This document shows, piece by piece, positions 3-11,285 of a DNA stretch of 36,800 nt. How positions within the stretch are numbered: position 1 is the stretch's first letter; each line of letters starts with the position of its first letter. The translations under genes and the position numbers were made by a program. Under the pieces are notes generated by a model that searched no databases, had not been told where the DNA came from, and saw only the letters and a list, made by a program, of their open reading frames with translations. Location: contig NZ_BSOB01000017.1 of the NCBI RefSeq assembly GCF_030160295.1, positions 177,239 to 214,038 on the forward strand. Reading direction: 5' to 3'. This DNA comes from Dyella acidisoli (lineage in GTDB: Bacteria; Pseudomonadota; Gammaproteobacteria; Xanthomonadales; Rhodanobacteraceae).

Positions 3-521
3 ACGATCAGCTCGGACGCGTGGAACTTTGGTGACGGCAGCACCTCTACGTCGGCGAACCCGAGCCACACCTACGCGGCTGCGGGTACCTACACGGTGAC
101 GTTGAAGGTGACGGATAACACCGGTGCCACCAACACCAAGACCGGTTCGGTGACGGTCACTGCACCGACTGGTCGTACGTTCTCCAACAACACTGCCGTT
201 GCCATCGGCGACGATGCGACGGTCACCAGTCCCATCACGGTGAGTGGCATTTCGGGTGACACCAAGTCGACGATCCAGGTCCACGTCAACATCACAAGCA
301 ACATGTCAGGTGATCTCGGGATCACGATCACCGCACCGGATGGTTCTTCGGCCACCTTGAAGAGTCCGGACTTTACGACCACCGGTAGCCTCAACACGAC
401 CTACTCGGTGACGGCGACGGGCGTACCGGCCAACGGCACATGGACGCTGACCGTGACCGACTACGACTTCTTCGGCAACGGTGATAGCAGTAAGTTGAAC
501 AGCTGGAACGTTTCGCTCTGA
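3..521 (+). CDS. C-terminal part of a secreted PKD / P-domain protein (5' end outside the window)
   Basis: The reading frame is open from the window edge, so only the C-terminus is visible. It begins inside a PKD domain (WNFGDGST, then the SHTYAAAGTYTVTL strand pattern typical of PKD ends) and continues into a proprotein-convertase-type P domain (TFSNNTAVAIGDDATVTSPI, ending NGDSSKLNSWNVSL). These beta-sandwich modules are common at the C-termini of exported bacterial proteases. The visible protein is almost identical to the end of the protein at 5874-7994: over the last ~140 residues I count about four substitutions, while the DNA carries many more, mostly synonymous differences. The catalytic or binding domain is not in the window, so its activity cannot be stated. 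The 3' flank holds a hairpin (532-549) and a terminator (590-627) that are also shared with the other copy. Confidence 0.9.
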   Translation, partial: TISSDAWNFGDGSTSTSANPSHTYAAAGTYTVTLKVTDNTGATNTKTGSVTVTAPTGRTFSNNTAVAIGDDATVTSPITVSGISGDTKSTIQVHVNITSNMSGDLGITITAPDGSSATLKSPDFTTTGSLNTTYSVTATGVPANGTWTLTVTDYDFFGNGDSSKLNSWNVSL

Positions 522-531
522 CGGAAAGCCG

Positions 532-549
532 GCGCGCAGGGATGCGCGC
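532..549 (+). promoter_or_regulatory. Hairpin with AGGGAT loop just after the stop codon (RsmA/CsrA-like site)
   Basis: A perfect six-base-pair stem GCGCGC/GCGCGC encloses the loop AGGGAT, starting ten bases after the stop codon. RsmA/CsrA dimers bind ANGGAN hexaloops on stems, so this is a formal match to such a site (inference). The same hairpin follows the stop at 8005-8022 and, in a variant, at 8692-8709. Confidence 0.55.
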
Positions 550-589
550 TGATGCAAAGCTTTCACATGACTGCGCTAAGCAGTTCTGA

Positions 590-627
590 GCCGGTGCGCG
601 ACGGAAAGTGCACCGGCCGGTTTTATT
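590..627 (+). terminator. Rho-independent terminator of the first PKD/P-domain gene
   Basis: GCCGGTGC (590-597) pairs with GCACCGGC (610-617), followed by a T-rich run (TTTTATTT, 621-628). It lies about 70 bases after the stop codon, like the related terminator at 8059-8092. Confidence 0.75.
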
Positions 628-644
628 TATGGGTGAAAAAGCGA

Positions 645-673
645 TTGACACTCATAAACGATCTATTGCAAAA
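645..673 (+). promoter_or_regulatory. Possible sigma-70 promoter for the TonB receptor gene
   Basis: A perfect -35 hexamer TTGACA occurs at 645-650. No good -10 hexamer is found at the ideal distance (TGCAAA or TCTATT are the nearest), so this is only a weak candidate. It lies between the terminator at 590-627 and the receptor gene. Confidence 0.25.
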
Positions 674-821
674 CCACTGGAATTCATGATCGCGATCACT
701 GATTGCAGGTTGTCCATTTCGCCGCGTAATGTGCCAATATCACCTACAAGGAGCCACGGGGGATATTAGAAAACGCAAGAGAAGACAACAGTCTCTCTCT
801 TCGCACGCGAATGGTGTACGC

Positions 822-3800
822 ATGCGATTGGGCTTCATTAAACCTCGTCACGCAGCCGCATGGTTCGCATGTGGGGTCGCGCTGCTGGCTTTATTCGCTT
901 CGAACTGGCCATCTCCGGCATGGTCTCAGACGACAGCCACCGAGATTCGGTCATTTGCTGTTCCGGCGGGAAATCTTTCTACGGCGCTTGATGTGCTGGC
1001 TGCTCAAGGCCAATTGCAGATCATGTATTCGCCCGAACTGGTTCACGGCTTAACCAGTCGCGCCGTGGTGGGGCGCTTCACGGCAGAAGCAGCATTGACG
1101 CAACTTCTGGCTGATTCGGGACTAACGTGGCAGATGGTCGGTCCGTCCACGCTTCTGCTACAGCGCATGGAAGCGTCAACTGAAAACGTCGATGCAGCGA
1201 AAATAAAGGGCGGCGCGCGCGCGGCCAAAACGCTCGGTACGATGACCATTAGTGGATCGCTGATCGACAATCCACGTATTCAGACGGCAACTCCTGTCTA
1301 TACCCTCACCGCGGAAGTCATTAACGCGCGGGGATTCAATAGCGTTGCGGAAGCATTGCAGTACTGCATTTTCGCCACCGGCTCCGTGCAAGGTCCTCAA
1401 CACTTTGCCGCCTTCACCCAGGGAGCTCAGACCGTCAACATCGGCAATCTTGGCCCGTCGCTGACGCTCATCCTGATGGATGGCAAGCCGCTTGCTGAAT
1501 TTGGAATGCTCTATGACGGCTCCTACAGCTTTACCAATCTGTCGAACATACCTCTTTCGCTTGTCGATCATATCGACATCATGCCGGCCGGAGCCTCATC
1601 GATCTACGGTTCGCAAGCGGTTGCCGCCGTTATCAACATCGTCACAAAACAACGCATGGATGGCGGTCAACTATCCGTGCAGAGCGGCGGCTATACGGCC
1701 GGCGGCGGCGCCAGCCAGCGCATAAGTGCAGCATATGGACATACGTTCAACGCGTTGAGCATCTTGGCGAGTATCGAGTTCAATAGCGCGTCACCGATTT
1801 GGGGCTATCAGCGCGCGTTGACGGCGAGCACCTGGTCCAATCCTAATGGTCTGGCCACGCCATCCTTGCAGTCCGCAATCGTGGACTACGGGTCTGCAGC
1901 CTCATATACAGGCCAAGCAAAGGGATTCATCACCCCGCCATCCGGTTGCGCTGGCAGCTTGTATGGCGCAACTACGCAATTGTCCACGTACAACACCAGC
2001 CCAGGAATTTACGGCCAATACTGCGGATCACGGTACGCCGATGGCTACGCGACCCTTAGCAATCGGATTCGAAGCATCGGAGGGTCGTTCAAGCTTCAGT
2101 ACCGCGTCAACGAAGACCTGTGGCTCTATGCCGATGCGATGATGAGTTGGCAACGCCAGAGCTGGTATGCGGGCGCGCCCCTATGGGCGTCGACGTATTT
2201 GCCGTCCAGGCTTATTGAAGATGCCGATACCGGGAATATCCTGGTTTTCGAGCGGACTTTTGCGCCGGAGGAAGAGCCGGGCGGCGTCGTAGGCCAGATG
2301 AGTCGCCAACAGGATCTGCTCTACCAGCTTGATCTGGGCGCCAACGGCCAATTCGGCGCTTCGAATTGGATCTGGGATATCTATTACCTGCGGTCGGGCG
2401 ATCGCACGACATTGATCAGAAACGATCTCATGACCGCCCCGATCAACGCGTTCTTCCAGCGTATGTTTGGACCGCCCGTGGGTATCGATCCCAGTACAGG
2501 ACTGCTTACCTACCATCCCGACTACGCAGCATTCTTTCGATCGATCACGCCGGCGCAGTTTGCGAGTTTCACTCAGGACATCGGTGAATTCAGTCAGACC
2601 TGGATCAACGACACGCGCGCAACCATTTCCAATGCAGAGTGGTTTGAGCTTCCCGGGGGTAACGCCGGTTTTGCTGCGCTTGTCGAGCGTGGTGGCGAAG
2701 CGTGGTATGCGCCCGTCGATCCTCTCTTCAGCAGTGGTGCCGTCTATCTGCATACCGTGGACGGAGGAGGGGGGCAGCGGGCGCATTCAGCGGCCGCATT
2801 CGAGTTCAATGCGCCGGTATGGCGACAAGTTACACTCGATCTGTCAGGCCGCTATGACTATTACTCGCCGCAGGCTGCAGCCAGCAATCACAAATTCACG
2901 TACAAGCTAGGTATTGAATATAGACCCACGGATTCGTTGCTGCTCCGCGGAAATTATACCACGGTTTTCAAAGCGCCTGATTTGCCAAGTATCTATTTGG
3001 GGCCAAGTGCCGGCTTCGCCAGTGTTACCGATCTCTATCTGTGTACCGTCACACATACTTCCAATTGCGGTACAAACGCCACCCAGGTTGTTCCGGTTAC
3101 GCTGCTGGGCAGTCGTAAACTGCAGCCGCTTTCGGCCAAAACGTGGACGGCTGGTCTTGTCTGGTCGCCGAACGACAGCCTAAGTTTTGGGCTCGATTAT
3201 TTTCACATTGACGCGCAAGACGAGATCGCTTCGCAAGATCCCAATCTGCTTGTGCAGGAGGAGTCGCAATGCTTGCTAGGTCAGCGCGACCCGAACTCCT
3301 TGGCGTGCCAAGTGTTGACCAATCCAACAAACGGCCAGGTACAACGAGCGAGTCCAGATGGACGCGGCGAAATTACAGGCGTGACGTCTTACGACGCCAA
3401 CCTGGCTCATGAAACCACCGAGTCAGTTGTTGCCAACGTCACATGGGGATTTCCGTTGCCGCGCGTGGGCAAATTTGCCATGCACTTCGACTACAACGAC
3501 ATCCTCAAGCACGACTATCAACAGTCCCCTGGCCAACCCGTGGTCAACCTATTGGACGATCCAACCCTGAACGTTGATTTCAAGAGCGTAGTGGAAGGGA
3601 GTATGAGTTGGACAAGTCTCGACGACCGGTGGAGCAGCACTTTGTACGGTCGCCGCCTCGGCTCTTCCCCCGATTACGCTTCGATAAGCGGCCTTGGCTA
3701 TCCGGGGAGCGCCCATCTTACGCCCTGGATCACGTTCAACTGGAGCCTGACTTTTACGCCTGCGAGTCCTCTGAAGTTTTCCCTTGTGATCAAAAACATC

Positions 3801-3929
3801 GCCAACAAGGGGCCGCCGAGGGATCCGACGTTCACCGCGTTTCCCTATTTCAACTTTGATAACTATAACGACTATGGTCGTGAAATCATGCTGCAAATGG
3901 ATCTAAAGCTGACGAGTCACCCCGGCTGA
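822..3929 (+). CDS. TonB-dependent outer-membrane receptor with N-terminal STN domain
   Basis: This is an outer-membrane beta-barrel receptor driven by TonB. From the ATG at 822 the protein opens with a signal peptide (hydrophobic core AAAWFACGVALLALFA, cleavage near PAWSQ), which is why I prefer this start over the in-frame ATG at 729 that would add 31 charged residues; neither has a strong ribosome-binding site. An STN domain follows (about residues 42-105, FAVPAGNLSTALDVLAAQGQ), then the plug (LILMDGKPL, YGSQAVAAVINIVTK) and a long barrel. STN domains often signal to FecR-type anti-sigma factors, but no fecI/fecR pair lies beside this gene. The last strand ends in QMDLKL with an extra TSHPG, lacking the usual terminal aromatic residue. 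The substrate is unknown. It converges on the pseudo-kinase gene with an 18 bp gap. Confidence 0.92.
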   Translation: MRLGFIKPRHAAAWFACGVALLALFASNWPSPAWSQTTATEIRSFAVPAGNLSTALDVLAAQGQLQIMYSPELVHGLTSRAVVGRFTAEAALTQLLADSGLTWQMVGPSTLLLQRMEASTENVDAAKIKGGARAAKTLGTMTISGSLIDNPRIQTATPVYTLTAEVINARGFNSVAEALQYCIFATGSVQGPQHFAAFTQGAQTVNIGNLGPSLTLILMDGKPLAEFGMLYDGSYSFTNLSNIPLSLVDHIDIMPAGASSIYGSQAVAAVINIVTKQRMDGGQLSVQSGGYTAGGGASQRISAAYGHTFNALSILASIEFNSASPIWGYQRALTASTWSNPNGLATPSLQSAIVDYGSAASYTGQAKGFITPPSGCAGSLYGATTQLSTYNTSPGIYGQYCGSRYADGYATLSNRIRSIGGSFKLQYRVNEDLWLYADAMMSWQRQSWYAGAPLWASTYLPSRLIEDADTGNILVFERTFAPEEEPGGVVGQMSRQQDLLYQLDLGANGQFGASNWIWDIYYLRSGDRTTLIRNDLMTAPINAFFQRMFGPPVGIDPSTGLLTYHPDYAAFFRSITPAQFASFTQDIGEFSQTWINDTRATISNAEWFELPGGNAGFAALVERGGEAWYAPVDPLFSSGAVYLHTVDGGGGQRAHSAAAFEFNAPVWRQVTLDLSGRYDYYSPQAAASNHKFTYKLGIEYRPTDSLLLRGNYTTVFKAPDLPSIYLGPSAGFASVTDLYLCTVTHTSNCGTNATQVVPVTLLGSRKLQPLSAKTWTAGLVWSPNDSLSFGLDYFHIDAQDEIASQDPNLLVQEESQCLLGQRDPNSLACQVLTNPTNGQVQRASPDGRGEITGVTSYDANLAHETTESVVANVTWGFPLPRVGKFAMHFDYNDILKHDYQQSPGQPVVNLLDDPTLNVDFKSVVEGSMSWTSLDDRWSSTLYGRRLGSSPDYASISGLGYPGSAHLTPWITFNWSLTFTPASPLKFSLVIKNIANKGPPRDPTFTAFPYFNFDNYNDYGREIMLQMDLKLTSHPG

Positions 3930-3947
3930 AGTCTCTATTGGGAGGGC

Positions 3948-5459
3948 TCATCCGTTCTCGTGAATCGGTAGCGAAAAGCTGAAGCATCTATCGCCATTAC
4001 CGCTACGTGAAGTCCACATGCGGCCCGCATGTGATTCGATGATCGATCGACAGGCGGCAAGATTTACCTCCAGGCCATCCATGTCAGCAAGGTGATCCGG
4101 TTGGACGGCGGCGTTTGCGTAGCCTGTTCTCGTGCTTCTTTCGATTATGTTTACGAAAACCTCCTTCGATCGGTGTTGTGTATGAATGATGAGTTGCTTC
4201 GTATCAGCATTTGAAGCTTCGATGGAGTCCATGCCGAGTTGAATCACTCTCATCAAAACATGCTGCATTTGTGGAGGATTGCCCCAGGTCGGAGGCATGT
4301 GATCGGTCAGGTTTAGTTGCAGAGAAATATCTCTCTCCCGCAACTTGGCCGTGAAGAGATCGCAGGCATTGACAATGATCTCATTGAGATCAAGCACGCT
4401 TTGGCCGCCCCATGTGCGCTGATGCACGGATGCCGCGTGTGCCATGATGGCTGCGGCTGACGTGGCGTCCTGAATAATTCCTTCGTTAGCGAAGAGGGCC
4501 CGGTCCAGATGCGGAGACTTGGGGGATAGCCAGCGGTGGCAGGCGCGTGCACGAGTGATCACGGCGCTCAGAAGCCGGTTCACTTCTTGTGCGAGCGATG
4601 TTGAAAGATCCGTCGAAGTAATCATCTTAAGGGCATGCGACAACCGCGACTGCGCAACCTGAAGATGCTTTTGCAAGCGTAACTTGTCGTCGACGTCGAT
4701 GGTCACCACACACCAGTAGATGATGTTGCCGTCCTGGTCGCACATGGAGTTGCCGTAAAAATCACACCATCGATACGAACGGTCGGCAGCCCGAAGACGG
4801 AAGGTCCCCTTGTAGCCGTTGTCCGATGCTGTCGACTTGCGCCATGCCTCGGTGAATGCGAAGGCATCATCAGCATGTATATCAGCGGCCCACAAAAAGC
4901 GTCGGTAGTCATCTTGCGAAAGACCGCTGTAACCACAAGCGTGTTGGTTTGCGTACTCAATTTGTCCGTTTGGAAGAGCCGCCATGACAGGGACGGGGAG
5001 CGCCTCAAGGAGAGATCGAAAACTTCCAGCGTCGCTGCTCAACTCATCAGTAATCTTTCCATAGCTACGGATGTTTTCGAGCAAACCATGCCATTGAACA
5101 GTATGGCCAAGATGATCGCAGACCGGTGCGGCTTTTGTATGGAACCAATGATACGTGCCGTCAAATCGCAGAAGCCTGTGCACGATGCTTATGGATTGGC
5201 CGTTGCGACAACCGCGGTTCCAATGCCCGATGAAGAAGTTGTAATCGTCGACATGAATGCACTCATTCCATGCCCTTAACGTGGCATCCCGCAGGGGCTG
5301 GCCGACGAATGATAGAAGATGCCGATTGGCTTGAATGTTCTCGCCGGAAGCATCGGCTACAAACACAAGGCCGGGAATGCTGTCGAATACGCGGAGAAGA
5401 TCTGAGCCATTCGATGATGCGACGTCGACGATTTCTTGCTCACCCATGTTCGACTGCAT
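3948..5459 (-). CDS. PAS-PAS histidine-kinase homologue, probably catalytically dead
   Basis: The 503-residue soluble protein has two PAS domains (about residues 15-130 and 145-265; second has the PAC-like end WCDFYGNSMCDQDGNIIYWC), then a region aligning with the HisKA/HATPase core of PAS kinases. The H-box, normally LAHEVNQPLAAIV, reads LAQEVNRLLSAVI: the phospho-accepting His is Gln291 (CAA, 4587-4589). The N-box Asn residues are replaced (VLMRVIQLGMDSIEA), and no DxGxG motif remains (NIIERSTRTG), although the end CRSIIESHAGRMW is clearly kinase-like. The reading frame is intact, so selection seems to keep the protein as a PAS sensor or scaffold without kinase activity (inference). Start: ATG at 5459, or the in-frame ATG four codons later, which is better spaced from an AAGGGGA sequence. 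Convergent with the TonB receptor; no response-regulator partner adjoins. Confidence 0.88.
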   Translation of the reverse strand: MQSNMGEQEIVDVASSNGSDLLRVFDSIPGLVFVADASGENIQANRHLLSFVGQPLRDATLRAWNECIHVDDYNFFIGHWNRGCRNGQSISIVHRLLRFDGTYHWFHTKAAPVCDHLGHTVQWHGLLENIRSYGKITDELSSDAGSFRSLLEALPVPVMAALPNGQIEYANQHACGYSGLSQDDYRRFLWAADIHADDAFAFTEAWRKSTASDNGYKGTFRLRAADRSYRWCDFYGNSMCDQDGNIIYWCVVTIDVDDKLRLQKHLQVAQSRLSHALKMITSTDLSTSLAQEVNRLLSAVITRARACHRWLSPKSPHLDRALFANEGIIQDATSAAAIMAHAASVHQRTWGGQSVLDLNEIIVNACDLFTAKLRERDISLQLNLTDHMPPTWGNPPQMQHVLMRVIQLGMDSIEASNADTKQLIIHTQHRSKEVFVNIIERSTRTGYANAAVQPDHLADMDGLEVNLAACRSIIESHAGRMWTSRSGNGDRCFSFSLPIHENG

Positions 5460-5735
5460 ATCCCCTTGCCCTTGGCTTGTAAGTGCCGCCGGTCAATCTA
5501 TAAGTTTCTAGGCGACGTCTCACTAAGACGCGGTTCGAACAGGAAAAGCCTACCCTCGAACCATTCACGGTTAAGAAGCAGATGCGTCTGACGATTTGTT
5601 CAGTTTGAGCTGGGCGTTTTATCCCGCACAAAGATATCGGATCTTCATGTCTTAGTAGAAATGATCACATAGGCTTTTTTTTTTGGTCACCGTTTAAATA
5701 TATGGCGACGCTGCTACGCGATCGGGGAAGGGGAT
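5460..5735. other. Intergenic region between divergent genes (5460-5735)
   Basis: AT-rich stretch between the pseudo-kinase gene (minus) and the PKD/P-domain gene (plus). It must hold both promoters. A T-run followed by GGTCACCGTTTAAATATATGG (5674-5704) is the most promoter-like part for the plus strand, but no convincing -35/-10 pair could be assigned. Confidence 0.4.
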
Positions 5736-5841
5736 TGCGCAGGGATGCGTAGCGCGTTGGAGCCGTCGTCCGGAGCGATACGAAAGGAGGGTTGCACTTC
5801 GGTGCAAAAGAGTTACGGGCACACGTGCTCGTGGGGCCCGT
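5736..5841 (+). promoter_or_regulatory. Structured 5' leader with three hairpins upstream of the PKD/P-domain gene
   Basis: Three stem-loops lie in the 140 bases before the chosen ATG. The first, TGCGC/GCGTA (5736-5740/5747-5751), has the loop AGGGAT, matching the hairpins found after the stop codons of the related genes. The second is TTGCAC-TTCG-GTGCAA (5792-5807), a classical stable UUCG tetraloop. The third is ACGGGC/GCCCGT (5815-5820/5836-5841) with an inner CACG/CGTG pair. AAGGAGG at 5784-5790 precedes the second hairpin with no suitably placed start. This suggests post-transcriptional control; it does not match any riboswitch consensus I know. Confidence 0.5.
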
Positions 5842-5873
5842 TTGTCAAAAATAAAGCTTTGGGGAATTTCTTT

Positions 5874-7994
5874 ATGTCTAATCGCAAGTTTTCTTCGAGG
5901 AGCCGCCTGTTAATGGCAGCGGTTTCAGCTTTGCTCAGCGTGACCATGGGGAGTGCAGCGGTTCACGCAGACGATGGTGCATCCACGAATCCTTATGCGG
6001 TGAAGAAGGTCAATATTCTGCAAGACCCGTATTCGCCGCTTGTTGGACATGCCTACCGTCACGGTGTTTTACCGACCGTTGAAGGGGTCCGACTGTCACG
6101 ACAGTGGAAGGCCGCCAATTTCGTGGCCGGCACGACGGCCGCAGCGACGGGTCCCGATACGTTGTCCTATCTCGGTGGCGACCCTAATGCGGGTGGTGCC
6201 GGCGTGATGGACGGTACCGTGAAAGTCTACGTGGTGTTCTATGGCAACCAGTGGGGTACCCAGAGTACCGATGCCAATGGCAATCTGACCTTCTCCGGCG
6301 ATCCGGATGGTACGGCGCCTGTCACGCAAAAGTTTTTCAAAGACATCGGTACTGGCGGTGAACTGTGGTCGGCGGGGTTGACGCAATGGTGCGACGGCCC
6401 GAACGTGTCGGCGGGCGCAACCAGTTGCCCGAACAATGCCAGCTTCGTCCCGTACCAGACCGGTGGCGTTCTGGCCGGTGTGTGGTATGACAACTCTGCG
6501 GCGTCTCCGGCGGAGGCTACCGCGCTTCAACTCGCGCAAGAGGCCGATGCAGCCGCGAAACACTTCGGCAATACGACGGCAGCATCGAACCGGTATGCCT
6601 ATTACGTGATCCTCTCGCCGCACGGCACCAATCCAGATGACTATAAAGCCCAGACTTCCGGCGACCAAGGTTACTGCGCGTGGCACGACTGGGACGGTGA
6701 TGGTGCGCTTGGCGGTGCCGCCCCGGGCCTTGATGGCAGTGGAGGAGGTACGGGTTCTCCTGATGGCGCCGTTGCTTTCAGCAACCAACCGTACAACGTG
6801 GACAACGGTGCGACCTGCGGCGTGAATTTCGTGAATTCGGGCGCAGCAGGAACGCTGGATGGTTACACCATGACGCTAGGACACGAATGGCAGGAGATGA
6901 TGTCCGATACGTTCCCCTATGCTTCTTCGCCAACGGCTACCACCTTCTCTGGCGGTGGTTGGTACAACCAAAAAAATGGTGAAAACGGTGACGAATGTGC
7001 CTGGCGCTATTCGTTCGAGCAAGGCGGAGCGGCCAATGTCCAATTCGGCAACGACACGTTCGCAGAGCAGTCCATCTGGTCGAACGATACGAACGAGTGC
7101 GATATCTCGCACCCGATCGTGAACCATAGTGCGGGTAGTAAGCCGGTCGCCAACTTCGGTGACACGGTAAGCGGCCTGACGGTGAACTTCACAAACAGTT
7201 CCACCGATACGGGCGGCACGATCAGTTCGTATGCATGGAACTTCGGTGATAACACCACCTCCACCGTAGCAAGCCCGAGCCACACTTATGCCGCAGCCGG
7301 TACGTATACCGTGACGTTGACGGTAACCGACAACACTGGTGCAACCAACACCAAGACCGCATCCGTGACGGTAAGCAGCGGCGGTACCACCACGGGCAAT
7401 CCGGTAGCCAACTTCACCGATACGGTAAGCGGCTTGACGGCGACCTTCACCAACAGCTCCACCGATACGGGCGGTACCATCAACGCGTATGCATGGAACT
7501 TTGGTGACGGCAGCACTTCCACCGTAGCAAGCCCGAGCCACGCCTATGCCGCAGCCGGCACGTACTCGGTCTCGCTGAAGGTGACGGATAACACCGGTGC
7601 GACCAACACCAAGACCGGTTCGGTGACGGTCACAGCGCCGACAGGCCGTACGTTCTCCAACAACACCGCGGTCGCCATTGGCGACGATGCGACTGTGACC
7701 AGTCCCATCACGGTGAGCGGCATTTCGGGTGACACCAAGTCGACGATCCAGGTGCACGTCAACATCACCAGCAACATGTCGGGGGATCTCGGGATCACGA
7801 TCACGGCGCCGGATGGTTCTTCGGCCACCTTGAAGAGTCCCGACTTCACGACCACGGGTAGCCTCAATACGACCTACTCGGTGCCGGCGACGGGCGTACT
7901 GGCCAACGGCACATGGACGGTGACCGTAACCGACTACGACTTCTTCGGTAATGGCGACAGCAGCACCTTGAACAGCTGGAACGTTTCACTTTGA
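5874..7994 (+). CDS. Secreted protein with putative HExxE metallopeptidase-like domain, two PKD domains and a P domain
   Basis: The start at 5874 is preceded by GGGGA at an eight-base spacing and gives a signal peptide (MSNRKFSSRSRLLMAAVSAL, cleavage near VHA-DD); the frame stays open upstream to 5745. The ~706-residue product has an N-terminal domain of about 420 residues containing VYVVFYGNQWG, GYCAWHDWDGDG and LGHEWQEMMSDTFP (His337, Glu338, Glu341), followed by GWYNQKNGENGDECAW. A His-Glu pair followed by a GWY...GDxCAW segment recurs in a family of exported proteins of uncertain function; a zinc-peptidase role is a guess from the motif. Two PKD domains (about 7135-7380 and 7399-7640) and a P domain (about 7650-7991) follow. 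The C-terminal module is nearly identical to that at 3-521. Expected to be exported, probably by Sec plus type II secretion. Expression may be controlled through the leader hairpins. Confidence 0.92.
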   Translation: MSNRKFSSRSRLLMAAVSALLSVTMGSAAVHADDGASTNPYAVKKVNILQDPYSPLVGHAYRHGVLPTVEGVRLSRQWKAANFVAGTTAAATGPDTLSYLGGDPNAGGAGVMDGTVKVYVVFYGNQWGTQSTDANGNLTFSGDPDGTAPVTQKFFKDIGTGGELWSAGLTQWCDGPNVSAGATSCPNNASFVPYQTGGVLAGVWYDNSAASPAEATALQLAQEADAAAKHFGNTTAASNRYAYYVILSPHGTNPDDYKAQTSGDQGYCAWHDWDGDGALGGAAPGLDGSGGGTGSPDGAVAFSNQPYNVDNGATCGVNFVNSGAAGTLDGYTMTLGHEWQEMMSDTFPYASSPTATTFSGGGWYNQKNGENGDECAWRYSFEQGGAANVQFGNDTFAEQSIWSNDTNECDISHPIVNHSAGSKPVANFGDTVSGLTVNFTNSSTDTGGTISSYAWNFGDNTTSTVASPSHTYAAAGTYTVTLTVTDNTGATNTKTASVTVSSGGTTTGNPVANFTDTVSGLTATFTNSSTDTGGTINAYAWNFGDGSTSTVASPSHAYAAAGTYSVSLKVTDNTGATNTKTGSVTVTAPTGRTFSNNTAVAIGDDATVTSPITVSGISGDTKSTIQVHVNITSNMSGDLGITITAPDGSSATLKSPDFTTTGSLNTTYSVPATGVLANGTWTVTVTDYDFFGNGDSSTLNSWNVSL

Positions 7995-8004
7995 TGAAAT
8001 ATCC

Positions 8005-8022
8005 GCGCGCAGGGATGCGCGC
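8005..8022 (+). promoter_or_regulatory. Hairpin with AGGGAT loop just after the stop codon (RsmA/CsrA-like site)
   Basis: GCGCGC (8005-8010) and GCGCGC (8017-8022) enclose AGGGAT, ten bases after the stop codon, at exactly the same spacing as 532-549. The loop with its closing bases (CAGGGATG) contains the CARGGAUG core of the published CsrA SELEX consensus. Confidence 0.55.
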
Positions 8023-8058
8023 GTGCAAATCACTCACTTGACTGTGCAAAGCAGGCTT

Positions 8059-8092
8059 GACCGGTGTCGCGTAAAGCGCACCGGTCATTTTT
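8059..8092 (+). terminator. Rho-independent terminator of the PKD/P-domain gene
   Basis: GACCGGTG (8059-8066) pairs with CACCGGTC (8079-8086), followed by ATTTTT. It is homologous in place and stem sequence (CCGGTG/CACCGG) to the terminator at 590-627. Confidence 0.85.
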
Positions 8093-8300
8093 GTTCATAG
8101 GTAAAGAGCGGGAGCATCCCTGGCAACCGTTGCTCCATACAGCCGGCTCGCGTTTGTCGCGCTGCCCCGATGGCAGGTTCCGGTAGGAATTCTCCGATTC
8201 AAAAGGGCATAGGCGGAAAGTAGCTTTCCCACATCATCGGCGGTGACATTTGTCGCAACTCCATTTGGGTGGCCCACCTCGATGAGAAAGGAGGGCCTTC

Positions 8301-8549
8301 ATGTCTGCCACGCCATCACCGAATACTTCGCCTGCGGGATACCTGGTGCATGAGCAACAGATGGCGTCCATTGGCAAGGTGATTCTCAAGCTTTCGCCCG
8401 AATGTCAGCGCGTCTTTCTGCTCAAGCGGGTGTATGGCATGAGTTGCAAACAGATCGCCGTACTTTCCGGCATACCTGTAAGCAGGGTAGAAAAAGATCT
8501 CGCCAAAGCGCTCGCCTTGTTGAAGGGTTGCATAGCCGATCAAGAGTGA
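8301..8549 (+). CDS. Stand-alone sigma-70 region 4 protein (82 aa)
   Basis: The ATG at 8301 has a near-perfect Shine-Dalgarno sequence (AAGGAGG, 8287-8293), so this short gene is well supported. Residues ~28-78 form a sigma-70 region 4 helix-turn-helix (LSPECQRVFLLKRVYGMSCKQIA, then VSRVEKDLAKALALL), closest in style to FecI-type ECF sigma factors, whose equivalent reads LPxRCREVFLLxRxxGLSYxEIA...VSxxVEKHxAKAL. Region 2, needed for -10 recognition and core binding, is absent, and the 200 bases upstream show no remnant of it. It could be a decayed ECF sigma factor or a functional small regulator that binds -35 DNA or the RNA polymerase beta flap; the strong ribosome-binding site favours the latter. 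It converges on the S53 peptidase gene. Confidence 0.75.
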   Translation: MSATPSPNTSPAGYLVHEQQMASIGKVILKLSPECQRVFLLKRVYGMSCKQIAVLSGIPVSRVEKDLAKALALLKGCIADQE

Positions 8550-8638
8550 AGCTTTCTTCCATTCGCGCCGGTCCTTCTGTTGTGCACGTATATTCCAGTC
8601 AAGACAGCGGTGCCGTGCCGATATGGGATCTTTCGAGG

Positions 8639-8671
8639 ATAAAAAAGCGCCAGGCCCTGAGGGTCTGGCGC
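8639..8671 (-). terminator. Rho-independent terminator of the S53 peptidase gene
   Basis: Read on the minus strand, GCGCCAG (8671-8665) and CTGGCGC (8653-8647), with an inner CCC/GGG pair, are followed by TTTTTT (8646-8641). It may also stop transcription arriving from the sigma-region-4 gene. Confidence 0.85.
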
Positions 8672-8691
8672 TGGAATCGTTTCAGATGCAG

Positions 8692-8709
8692 GCGCACATC
8701 CCTGTGCGC
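8692..8709 (-). promoter_or_regulatory. Hairpin with AGGGAT loop after the S53 peptidase stop codon (best RsmA/CsrA match)
   Basis: On the minus strand, GCGCAC-AGGGAT-GTGCGC begins eight bases after the stop codon; the stem can extend with GCAG/CTGC around a bulge. GCACAGGGATGT matches the CsrA SELEX consensus RUACARGGAUGU at 11 of 12 positions. The stem sequence differs from the copies at 532 and 8005 while base-pairing and loop are kept. Confidence 0.6.
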
Positions 8710-8717
8710 TGCAGCCT

Positions 8718-11285
8718 TTAGAACGTCAGGCTCCAGTTATTGAGTGTGCCGTGGTCGCCGTTCCCATACACATCGAAGTCAACGATTTCGAGCTGCCATG
8801 TGCCGTTCGCCGGTGACGAGGATGCGTTCACGGTCCAGGTCTTGTTGATGTTGCCGTCATTGTTGAAGTCAGGTTCTTGCAGAAGCTGTGCAGAACCGTT
8901 CGGTGCAATGAGCTCGATCAACAAATCGCCGGAGTGGCTGTGCGTGATGTTGGCGTGCACTTGCAACGTTGTCGGCGCGTTGCCCGACTCGCCGCTTACC
9001 GCGATGCTGCTGACGACAACGGCGTTGTCGCCGATCGAGCTCGGTGTGTTGTTGCTGAATACACCGCCGTTACTACTGCTTTTCACCGTCACCGACTCGG
9101 TCTTGGTATTGCTGACCCCAGTGTTGTCGGTCACCTTCAGTGACACCGAGTAGGTACCGGCCGCCGCATAGGTGTGGCTAGGGCTGGTCGCAGAAGACGT
9201 GCTGCCGTCGCCAAAGTTCCACGAGGAAGCTTTGATGGTACCTCCCGTATCGGTGGAGGTATTGGCGAAGTTCGCCGTCAGGCCGCTGACCGTATCGCCG
9301 AAATTAGCGACGGGATGACCGGACGGTGTCGGTGTCGGAGTAGGGGTGGGTGTTGGAGTGGGTGTCGGTGTCGGTGTTGGAGTGGGGGTGGGTGTCGGAG
9401 TAGGTGTTGGCGTTGGCGTCGGCGCACCACCCCAGTATTTGGTGACGTAAGCGCTGAACTTGCTGATGTCCAAACTGCCCCAGCCGGTATCCATGTCATA
9501 ACCGACGCCGGCGTTGTAACCGTAGGTGGTGCCATTGGAAGTAATGCCGTTGTTGCCTACGGTGACATCATGCAGCGGTGTGTTATCTGCCGAGAAGTAC
9601 TTGTACATGTTCGGGGTTGGCAGACCCAGTGAGTTGCTATTGGCTGCCTCGATACGAGACCAGATGCCCACGAAGATCGGTGAGGCGAGACTGGTCCCCC
9701 CCACTTGCGCGCCCATACCCTCATACACAATGTTCACGCCCGAAGCATTGTCTGCGTCGAATGCGATGTCGGGTACTTCGCGTTTGCTGGGTTTGTTGCT
9801 CAGGTAGCTCGACTGCCAAGTAGGTGCGGTTTCGAAGCCGCTGACGCCACCAGTGGCGGCCCAGAGGCGCTCATTGCCATCGTTGTTCATGCCTTGGGTC
9901 GAAAGACCCGAGTTCCAGCCGGTTTCACCCACGTAGGTGGTACTGCTGGTCGTCGACGTGGATAGTGCCGTGCCGCCGACTACCACGACGTCCGGTGATG
10001 CACCCGGCTCGGACACGCCATATTGGCTGAGCGTAATTTGCGGGACACCTTGGCCATTGGCAACGTAGCCCGGACCATTGCCCGAGGAATCAAACGACCA
10101 CCCATACACACCCGCGTCGCCACTGGCAACCGAGAAGACCTGTCCCTGAGTCACGGCCTGAGCGAAGATCTTATCGTCGGCTGACTCCACACCTCCGTTG
10201 GCGGCGGCTGTTTCGTCCGAACCCAGCGACACGTTGATGACCTTGGCGGTATCGTCCGTCACGGCCTGGTTATAGGCCGCCGTAATATCGGAGCTCTGCG
10301 AGCTGGACGCGGCGTACAAGATCATCTGTTTCACGCCGCCGGAAACGCTATCGATGGTTTGGCTGTCCAGATCCCACTCGACGGTACCGTCCTGATAGCC
10401 CGCACCACTGCCAGGAACCGAAACGGTCTTCAGATTGACCTTCGACAGACTGTTGTTGGTGGTGAAGGTATTCAGGTCACTGGTGGCCTGGGTCATGTCG
10501 CCCCAGGTGATGATACCCACGACCGTGGTCGATGCCGTCGGTGTGGTGCCCACATCGTAAATGGTGGGAATATCAAGCGGACTGTGAGCCACTTCCTGTC
10601 CACCCGTAGCGGCCTGCGGCACAGCGGCATTGACACCCTTGACCGGCTTTATGGCAGGGGTCGACAGCACGTGAACGGTGGCATAGTCCTGCAGGCCGAG
10701 GACCGCATCAACGGTGCTGCCCAGCGATTGCGGCACGATAACGTCAGAGCCATTGGCATAGTGCTTCTCGCCCTTGTACATGAAGCTCTTCATGTTGGCG
10801 TTGAAGGCCGCATTGACGGTAGCTGCATTGCCGTCGGCAGACACCAGCGTGTTGTTCGGTGACACCTGGATGTTGGTGAAGCCGTATTTCTGCAAATGCG
10901 CTACCACGGACTGAACTTGCGCGTCCGTAGGCGAGTATTGGGCTTTGAATTGGGCAGGTGTCAGGAAGTGATGATAGTCAGGGCTTCCTAGCTCGTTCAC
11001 TGATTGCTCAAAGCTTTTCAGCTGGTCTGCGTTGCGTAACTGGAGACTTACCATCACATGCAGTGGTTTGCTTTGTTCCAGCGACGAGATCTGCGTGGCG
11101 TCAATGGAAGGGAAGCCGTTTGCGACGAGCGTCGTCACACTGTCATTGGTCTGGATACTCGCGTGCGTGCGCGTAGAAACCAAGGTGCCTTCGGCGGCAT
11201 GCGCCGACATGGACACTATGGCCAAAGACAGTGCCGTGGATAACAGCGTTTTGCGATTACCCTTCAAACATATCTGAGCTGACAT
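8718..11285 (-). CDS. S53 family (sedolisin / pseudomonalisin-like) serine-carboxyl peptidase with PKD and P domains
   Basis: This is a secreted acid-acting endopeptidase made as a preproenzyme of 855 residues. It has a signal peptide (cleavage near SAHA-AE, residue 30), a pro-kumamolisin activation domain (about 45-185, including SPDYHHFLTPAQF and YSPT), and the S53 catalytic domain (about 215-610). The catalytic Glu303 and Asp307 lie in EWDLD, the oxyanion Asp in NVSLGSDET and the nucleophile Ser532 in GGTSLASP; the C-terminal calcium site is suggested by DMDTGWGSLDI. A proline-threonine linker of 33 residues (622-654) leads to a PKD domain and a C-terminal P domain ending NGDHGTLNNWSLTF. 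The start has GAGGAG at a good spacing (11292-11298). The same PKD/P tail occurs on two neighbouring genes. Probably exported by type II secretion for extracellular protein breakdown. Confidence 0.95.
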   Translation of the reverse strand: MSAQICLKGNRKTLLSTALSLAIVSMSAHAAEGTLVSTRTHASIQTNDSVTTLVANGFPSIDATQISSLEQSKPLHVMVSLQLRNADQLKSFEQSVNELGSPDYHHFLTPAQFKAQYSPTDAQVQSVVAHLQKYGFTNIQVSPNNTLVSADGNAATVNAAFNANMKSFMYKGEKHYANGSDVIVPQSLGSTVDAVLGLQDYATVHVLSTPAIKPVKGVNAAVPQAATGGQEVAHSPLDIPTIYDVGTTPTASTTVVGIITWGDMTQATSDLNTFTTNNSLSKVNLKTVSVPGSGAGYQDGTVEWDLDSQTIDSVSGGVKQMILYAASSSQSSDITAAYNQAVTDDTAKVINVSLGSDETAAANGGVESADDKIFAQAVTQGQVFSVASGDAGVYGWSFDSSGNGPGYVANGQGVPQITLSQYGVSEPGASPDVVVVGGTALSTSTTSSTTYVGETGWNSGLSTQGMNNDGNERLWAATGGVSGFETAPTWQSSYLSNKPSKREVPDIAFDADNASGVNIVYEGMGAQVGGTSLASPIFVGIWSRIEAANSNSLGLPTPNMYKYFSADNTPLHDVTVGNNGITSNGTTYGYNAGVGYDMDTGWGSLDISKFSAYVTKYWGGAPTPTPTPTPTPTPTPTPTPTPTPTPTPTPTPTPSGHPVANFGDTVSGLTANFANTSTDTGGTIKASSWNFGDGSTSSATSPSHTYAAAGTYSVSLKVTDNTGVSNTKTESVTVKSSSNGGVFSNNTPSSIGDNAVVVSSIAVSGESGNAPTTLQVHANITHSHSGDLLIELIAPNGSAQLLQEPDFNNDGNINKTWTVNASSSPANGTWQLEIVDFDVYGNGDHGTLNNWSLTF
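9324..9422 (-). repeat. Proline-threonine coding repeat, (PT)16-P linker
   Basis: A six-base unit encoding Pro-Thr is repeated over 99 bases and encodes (PT)16 followed by P, joining the peptidase domain to the PKD domain. Third-base changes (ACA, ACC, ACT, ACG, CCG, CCA, CCC) break up the DNA repeat while the protein repeat is perfect. Confidence 0.9.

Follow-up and report, generated by a model that had tools for sequence, protein, structure and literature searches.

A putative CsrA/RsmA-type hairpin conserved in the 3' untranslated regions of P-domain exoenzyme genes in Dyella

The DNA analysed here (the window) is a stretch of 36,800 nucleotides from the genome of Dyella acidisoli, and it carries three genes whose products have PKD and P-domains. 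Gene 1 occupies positions 1-521 of the forward strand, with its 5' end outside the window, and matched PKD_4 (6.1e-17) and P_proprotein (2.4e-16) in Pfam. Gene 2 (5874-7994, forward strand) encodes two PKD domains and a C-terminal P-domain (Pfam); the ATG at 5874 was chosen as its start by inspection, the mechanical open reading frame beginning at 5745. The N-terminal part of gene 2 (5874-7130) gave no Pfam match, and its relatives outside the family of the source organism came mainly from actinomycetes (Streptomyces, Actinacidiphila and others) with 52-61% identity. Two further members of this catalytic-part family in the same genome (C51 and C54) have an internal stop. Gene 3 (8718-11285, reverse strand) combines a Pro-kumamolisin activation domain with a PKD domain and a P-domain (Pfam). 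The preliminary description of this DNA had spoken of all three PKD/P-domain genes, and Pfam confirmed both domains in each of them, but the genome (5.34 Mb) contains four P-domain matches and hence a fourth such gene (C4). Behind the stop of this fourth gene we found a hairpin of 11 pairs whose AGGGAC loop starts 20 nt from the first stop base, and no terminator was evident past it. The genome has one CsrA/RsmA match (E 1.9e-25) with Arg at residue 44, a position that we take to be important.

Each of the three genes in the window is followed by a GC-rich stem of 6-8 pairs that starts 8-9 nt past the stop codon and carries an AGGGAT hexaloop, closed by C-G in all three cases, with a terminator next. 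Hairpin 2, the main finding, spans 8004-8023 on the forward strand (7 bp, loop 8011-8016) behind the gene 2 stop at 7992-7994, and a terminator follows at 8058-8092. Hairpin 1 (530-551, forward strand, 8 bp, loop 538-543) lies behind the gene 1 stop at 519-521 and ahead of a forward-strand terminator at 590-628, which consists of a stem at 590-617 and a T-rich tail and contains ACGGAA in its loop. Hairpin 3 (8692-8709, reverse strand, 6 bp, loop 8703-8698) lies behind the gene 3 stop at 8720-8718, with a reverse-strand terminator at 8641-8672 whose T run is at the low-coordinate end. The terminators past hairpins 2 and 3 were read from the fold, the latter also from the sequence, and are absent from the terminator consensus scan. 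Folding of the three tails gave hairpin plus terminator with z values of -4.27, -3.86 and -4.22. The hairpin-and-terminator arrangement claimed previously for the three genes is therefore present in both sequence and folds; the sites had been placed correctly, though the pairing extends 1-2 bases further in two cases. Because the 3' tails of genes 1 and 2 are closely similar, the three cases in the window are not three independent ones.

The bare motif AGGGAT occurs in the window at chance level (11 sites vs a shuffle mean of 10.6), whereas the closed form CAGGGATG is enriched, with 6 occurrences vs a shuffle mean of 1.2 and none of 100 shuffles reaching 6. Only 4 of the 11 AGGGAT sites are borne on a stem of at least 4 pairs, and all four of these stems have at least 6 pairs. 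They are the three 3' hairpins and a site in the leader of gene 2 (5741-5746).

The loop was compared with what has been described for CsrA/RsmA binding. SELEX gave the consensus RUACARGGAUGU, GGA lying in the loop of a hairpin for 51 of 55 ligands (PMC7652899), and CANGGANG hexaloops are termed high-affinity CsrA sites in the relevant section of PMC4894983; the hairpin loop fits both. Among 25 distinct hairpins selected for A-N-GGA-N, all four bases occurred at the second and at the sixth loop position, so that conservation covers the CsrA core but not the loop as a whole. The stem covaries: across 33 hairpins, 20 cells were changed on both sides vs a shuffled mean of 5.0 (0/500 shuffles reached the observed value), in a test that leans towards structure since its rows were selected for stems or by model. 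The hairpin thus has the sequence features of the RsmA/CsrA-type target named earlier, and the pattern of loop and compensatory stem changes is as expected of a CsrA/RsmA site. Right past the stem, 9-10 nt after the first GGA, a second one follows in 8/21 genus genes and in none of the four genes of the D. acidisoli genome.

Conservation in related genomes had been proposed as a check, and the hairpin passed it within the genus. The genus has 22 P-domain matches, and 21 of them were examined (one of two in G069 was left out). In a model-free search, all 21 stop codons were followed within 60 nt by a stem-loop of 6 or more pairs that presents GGA in its loop, although the genus members are related and these genes do not amount to 21 independent events. 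At control stops from the D. acidisoli genome, a stem-loop was found in 27/59 and GGA in the loop in 2/59, in a non-random sample drawn from the window and from loci chosen for pattern or model matches. With the stricter definition of an ANGGAN hexaloop on at least 6 pairs, 19/21 genes were positive; the exceptions were G068b, in which a stem mismatch is present and the best stem-loop lies in a different register from the ACGGAT loop, and G075b, with the pentaloop AGGAA. A strict scan detected a terminator past the hairpin in at least 9/21 genes, which is a lower bound since the same scan missed two of the three terminators in the window. We regard the hairpin as a conserved 3'-UTR element of predicted RsmA type.

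Outside the genus the picture was more varied. Among 41 P-domain genes sampled from other genera, 33 had a stem-loop and 19 had GGA in the best one. The GGA loop was mostly present in g23 and g19 and was missing from 7/8 genes in g25, 2/2 in g2 and the single genes sampled in g4 and g18. Retention of the stem with loss of the loop, which the preliminary description had counted against its reading, occurred in three relatives (G179, G197b and G207b) and in none of the 21 genus genes. Four g23 species (G204, G203, G196 and G194; loci L105, L106, L113 and L116) have T's immediately after the GGA hairpin, so the hairpin may itself be a terminator there.

For genome-wide searches, 23 family hairpins, partly the same P-domain hairpins, were used to build a covariance model (R1), and in each genome the 150 top candidates from a permissive prescreen were scored. 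The D. acidisoli genome gave 16 matches at E up to 10, and the four P-domain hairpins took ranks 1-4 with 35.5, 32.9 (hairpin 2), 32.5 (hairpin 1) and 29.6 bits (hairpin 3), followed by a next match of 23.0 bits. Over 16 genus genomes, P-domain 3' hairpins made up all of the top 18 matches (at least 29.6 bits), and R1 matched 19 of the 21 examined P-domain genes at 28 bits or more. Rank 19 (29.1 bits; L216, at G077:C3:591900 in a genus member) is an ACGGAT hairpin a short way upstream of the coding region for a TonB-receptor-like secreted protein, rank 20 (28.2 bits; L217) falls in a stretch without long frames, and rank 21 (28.1 bits) is again a P-domain gene. Since R1 was partly trained on P-domain hairpins, their high rank is expected, and the informative part is the absence of other comparable matches. 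A control model with reversed loop reached at best 26.7 bits in the same 16 genomes and, at E up to 0.5, matched nothing in the D. acidisoli genome. A chance origin of the hairpins is ruled out by the CAGGGATG shuffles, the genome ranking, the reversed-loop model and the control stops. Family-wide, R1 matched at E up to 0.1 in at least 170 of 233 genomes, and the sites inspected (a set of 41 loci and a set of 43 places) included several kinds beside P-domain genes. Some lay downstream of the stop codons of g22 genes that encode PKD/PPC-domain proteins or, in two cases, PKD proteins (Pfam); others concerned a few further genes including a TonB receptor, or lay inside coding sequence, in a recurrent CCGTGGAAGGC element or in intergenic repeats of many copies. 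In the genus, the hairpin has a strong tie to P-domain genes and only a loose one to exported enzymes at large.

The multi-copy repeats raise another explanation, that the hairpin is a remnant of a palindromic repeat family of this order, with two hairpins and ANGGAN/AGGAT loops, which landed behind these genes. When 398 genomes were sampled evenly across the order, 57 had a match, and 35 of these belong to the sister family, which has up to 19 matches per genome, mostly of a near-identical first hairpin. Weak similarity to the TwoAYGGAY RNA was also seen (35.3 and 34.9 bits, and 40.6 bits for L190 of the organism's own family, with a cut-off of 43). However, the D. acidisoli genome has only 4 strong R1 matches among the best 150 candidates scored, all at P-domain genes, and the second hairpin is missing from the tails in the window. 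TwoAYGGAY matched neither the window nor any of the 16 genus genomes, which is a weak test as the positive control genomes gave no match either; Rfam returned no family at gathering score on the window and none of the TwoAYGGAY kind at E up to 10 in 450-8800. We consider an origin from this repeat family very improbable, and a general repeat or REP-type palindrome of the D. acidisoli genome is likewise unsupported by its four strong, exclusively P-domain-associated matches.

In the multi-copy repeat of the sister family (L238, L240-L258, L313-L332; for example G431, G440, G458 and G460; up to 19 matches per genome), the first hairpin is near-constant (GGCGCAC-AGGGAT-GTGCGCC), and the second has an AGGAT or ATGGAT loop on a stem that varies between copies; by script, GGA lies in the loop of the longest second stem in 15/21 copies, and the outer flanks appear complementary by eye. 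This repeat looks like a TwoAYGGAY-type RNA, and its copies are possibly dispersed RsmA decoys, judging from their sequence. Related two-hairpin repeats were found in g19, g25, g5 and g22 (L187-L192, L164, L178 and L179), with R1 match counts of 11 in G140, 10 in G141 and 16 in G228. A further element recurs across several genera with a CCGTGGAAGGC-like start and a CCGG-GCGC-ANGGAN-GCGC-CGG hairpin (L145, L147, L149, L151, L153, L166, L180, L185, L186, L193-L200, L203 and L206), and in some genomes it is readable as the end of a short open reading frame (...DPDWQP*).

The earlier claim had linked the hairpin to exported enzymes and proteases. Relatives of the catalytic part of gene 2 numbered 106 among the matches listed (gene 2 included), of which 54 were tried and 51 had a readable 3' end. 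The relatives ending in a P-domain had a GGA loop in 6/6 cases, a group that overlaps with the P-domain stop set, vs 4/45 of those without a P-domain (G219, G153, G192 and G072:C2, of which G072:C2 has a GGAT tetraloop with a 6-pair stem; G148, with the same hairpin and one mismatch, was excluded from the count) and 0/3 of those without a P-domain in the D. acidisoli genome. A tie to exported proteases in general is thus unsupported, and the link stands for P-domain enzyme genes but not for exoproteases as a whole.

This distribution also bears on whether RsmA is involved at all. The hairpin might instead be a GC-rich stem that acts without RsmA, by shielding the 3' end or aiding termination, and that was inherited together with the P-domain module, the loop being kept for another reason or by descent. 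In favour of this, the hairpin tracks the P-domain and not the catalytic domain (4/45 relatives without a P-domain); genes 1 and 2 have a common 3' tail, the hairpin resembles a terminator itself in several g23 species, and three relatives have the stem without GGA. Nevertheless, spacer, downstream sequence and stems diverge while A-N-GGA-N stays in 19 of the 21 genus genes, reversed-loop hairpins of comparable score were not found, and similar hairpins stand behind PKD/PPC proteins without a P-domain in g22. We therefore hold a purely structural role to be improbable, while the P-domain-linked conservation could partly reflect co-inheritance of a duplicated 3' module.

RsmA-type sites normally lie in leaders, and gene 2 has such a candidate, which was absent from the preliminary description. 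This AGGGAT hairpin (5735-5752, forward strand, loop 5741-5746) has 6 bp including one G-U and lies about 120-140 nt upstream of the ATG at 5874; it scored 17.4 bits with R1 (rank 14 of 16 in the genome) and forms in a 201-nt fold and not in a 101-nt fold (z -0.72). A scan of the 300 nt upstream of the first ATG in the 21 genus genes found an ANGGAN hairpin of at least 4 pairs only in gene 2 and G072, with the limits that in some genes translation starts later than the first ATG and that the leader of gene 1 lies outside the window; among the three P-domain genes of the D. acidisoli genome with an examined leader, it was found only in gene 2. Accordingly, the conserved place is 3', a candidate canonical 5' target having been found in just 2/21 genes.

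We slightly favour the reading that a CsrA/RsmA-type hairpin in the 3' UTR of P-domain exoenzyme mRNAs mainly controls its own message. The GC-rich stem would present the hexaloop A-N-G-G-A-N closed by C-G, and one face of the RsmA dimer would be expected to clamp it. The position of the hairpin after the stop codon excludes a direct block of ribosome entry. RsmA anchored at the tail would instead alter the life-time of the mRNA, or the dimer would reach a second GGA, either the one just past the stem in 8/21 genus genes or the leader hairpin of gene 2. Against this reading stands the single hairpin of each window tail, given that RsmA is a dimer. As a weaker added effect, abundant exoenzyme mRNA or its 3' fragment may take up some RsmA. 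Of the separate steps, binding of RsmA to the hairpin is quite probable from the site pattern, and action in cis on the same mRNA may well apply, although we stop a little short of expecting it. A wider form of the idea, in which 3'-UTR anchors throughout the lineage let the dimer bridge the tail and another GGA of its own mRNA in a closed loop and the pool of exoenzyme mRNAs sets free RsmA, is more speculative and rather unlikely.

The preliminary description had proposed another role, in which the hairpin-terminator tail comes free as a short 3' RNA and captures RsmA in trans, exoenzyme production thereby feeding back on RsmA activity. All three tails in the window do fold as hairpin plus terminator, and 3' placement keeps the translation start free. 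There are precedents as well: RsmU from the comEA 3' UTR binds RsmA in Xanthomonas (PMC7694677), flaA mRNA titrates CsrA in Campylobacter via its leader (PMC4894983), and rsmB homologues had remained unidentified in Xanthomonas according to the part of PMC3937308 that deals with them. However, each tail in the window has a single GGA hairpin, apart from further GGA after the stop and in the terminator loop of gene 1, and there are four such genes in the D. acidisoli genome, whereas RsmU has 3-4 GGA motifs, and attachment to one gene group suits control in cis equally or better. Moreover, multi-GGA candidate RNAs, potentially stronger sponges, occur in at least two genus members (one place in G080, two in G070). 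Action in cis is thus more likely than titration, given one hairpin per tail, few such genes, fixed attachment to one gene group and these candidate RNAs, the last of which in particular lower our rating of titration. The tail architecture and the RsmU precedent leave it some room, and we regard titration of RsmA by these hairpins as improbable, the released 3' RNA with feedback being if anything a shade more so.

The multi-GGA candidates came from searches of the 16 genus genomes with the Rfam RsmY model, which gave 9 sub-threshold places in 8 genomes. Three of these (one in G080 and two in G070) are GGA-rich and are candidate Rsm-type RNAs or repeats. L309 (G080:C92:5130-5231) scored 35.6 bits (E 7.0e-7), below the cut-off, and L309, L334 and L335 (the latter two in G070) have 10, 9 and 9 GGA, several in hairpin loops, together with terminators or T/A-rich stems, which makes them candidate Rsm-type sRNAs of the genus. 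The only sub-threshold place in the D. acidisoli genome has no ANGGA, and the other places seem to be carried by terminator or coding sequence.

If the wider idea of lineage-wide anchors held, the 3' ends of bacterial mRNAs would be places where CsrA acts as a rule, depending on the kind of product encoded. CsrA/RsmA action is described at leaders, in coding regions and by dedicated sponge RNAs in the sections of the papers that treat its targets (PMC7652899, PMC4894983, PMC7694677). The hairpin presented here is a candidate case of 3'-end control, kept at one gene group across species, which is simple and testable, and its model can be used to search for additional 3' sites.

Compared with known systems, the hairpin shares with high-affinity CsrA/RsmA sites a GGA hexaloop that is closed by C-G and carried on a stem; those targets are described in leaders and coding regions in the parts of PMC7652899 and PMC4894983 concerned with them, whereas the element in the window lies after the stop. 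The flaA mRNA of Campylobacter jejuni likewise bears GGA hexaloops and can act as a CsrA antagonist, but it has two adjacent hexaloops in its 5' leader, where CsrA represses translation (PMC4894983). TwoAYGGAY RNA (Rfam RF01731) likewise has ANGGAN-type loops and is a proposed CsrA binder (PMC4333381), but it has two hairpins and a larger fold. In the open-licence PMC literature on CsrA/RsmA 3' and mRNA sites and on Rsm RNAs, none of the matches listed reported RsmA sites after exoenzyme stops, and none of those listed concerned Rsm/Csr work in Rhodanobacteraceae. The closest relative is RsmU (sRX061) of Xanthomonas campestris, which belongs to the same bacterial order and resembles the window element in 3'-UTR location, GGA content and its RsmA partner, which is predicted here. 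RsmU starts 25 bp past the stop codon (PMC7694677), and the window hairpins have the same kind of placement shortly past the stop. RsmU differs in that its host is comEA and not an exoenzyme gene and in having several GGA motifs, a feature that the single hairpins of the window tails do not have; in the sections describing it, it is reported as confined to Xanthomonas, and its RsmA binding survived GGA-to-AAU changes (PMC7694677). The preliminary description had held 3'-end sponge sites at protease genes to be without known precedent, which agrees with our search as far as exoenzyme genes are concerned; RsmA sequestration by a 3' UTR as such is published for RsmU from comEA, and the kind of element is therefore not wholly new. 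What appears new, going by the papers listed, is the placement of a predicted RsmA-type hairpin behind exoenzyme stops, in an order where 3'-UTR ligands of RsmA as such are known.
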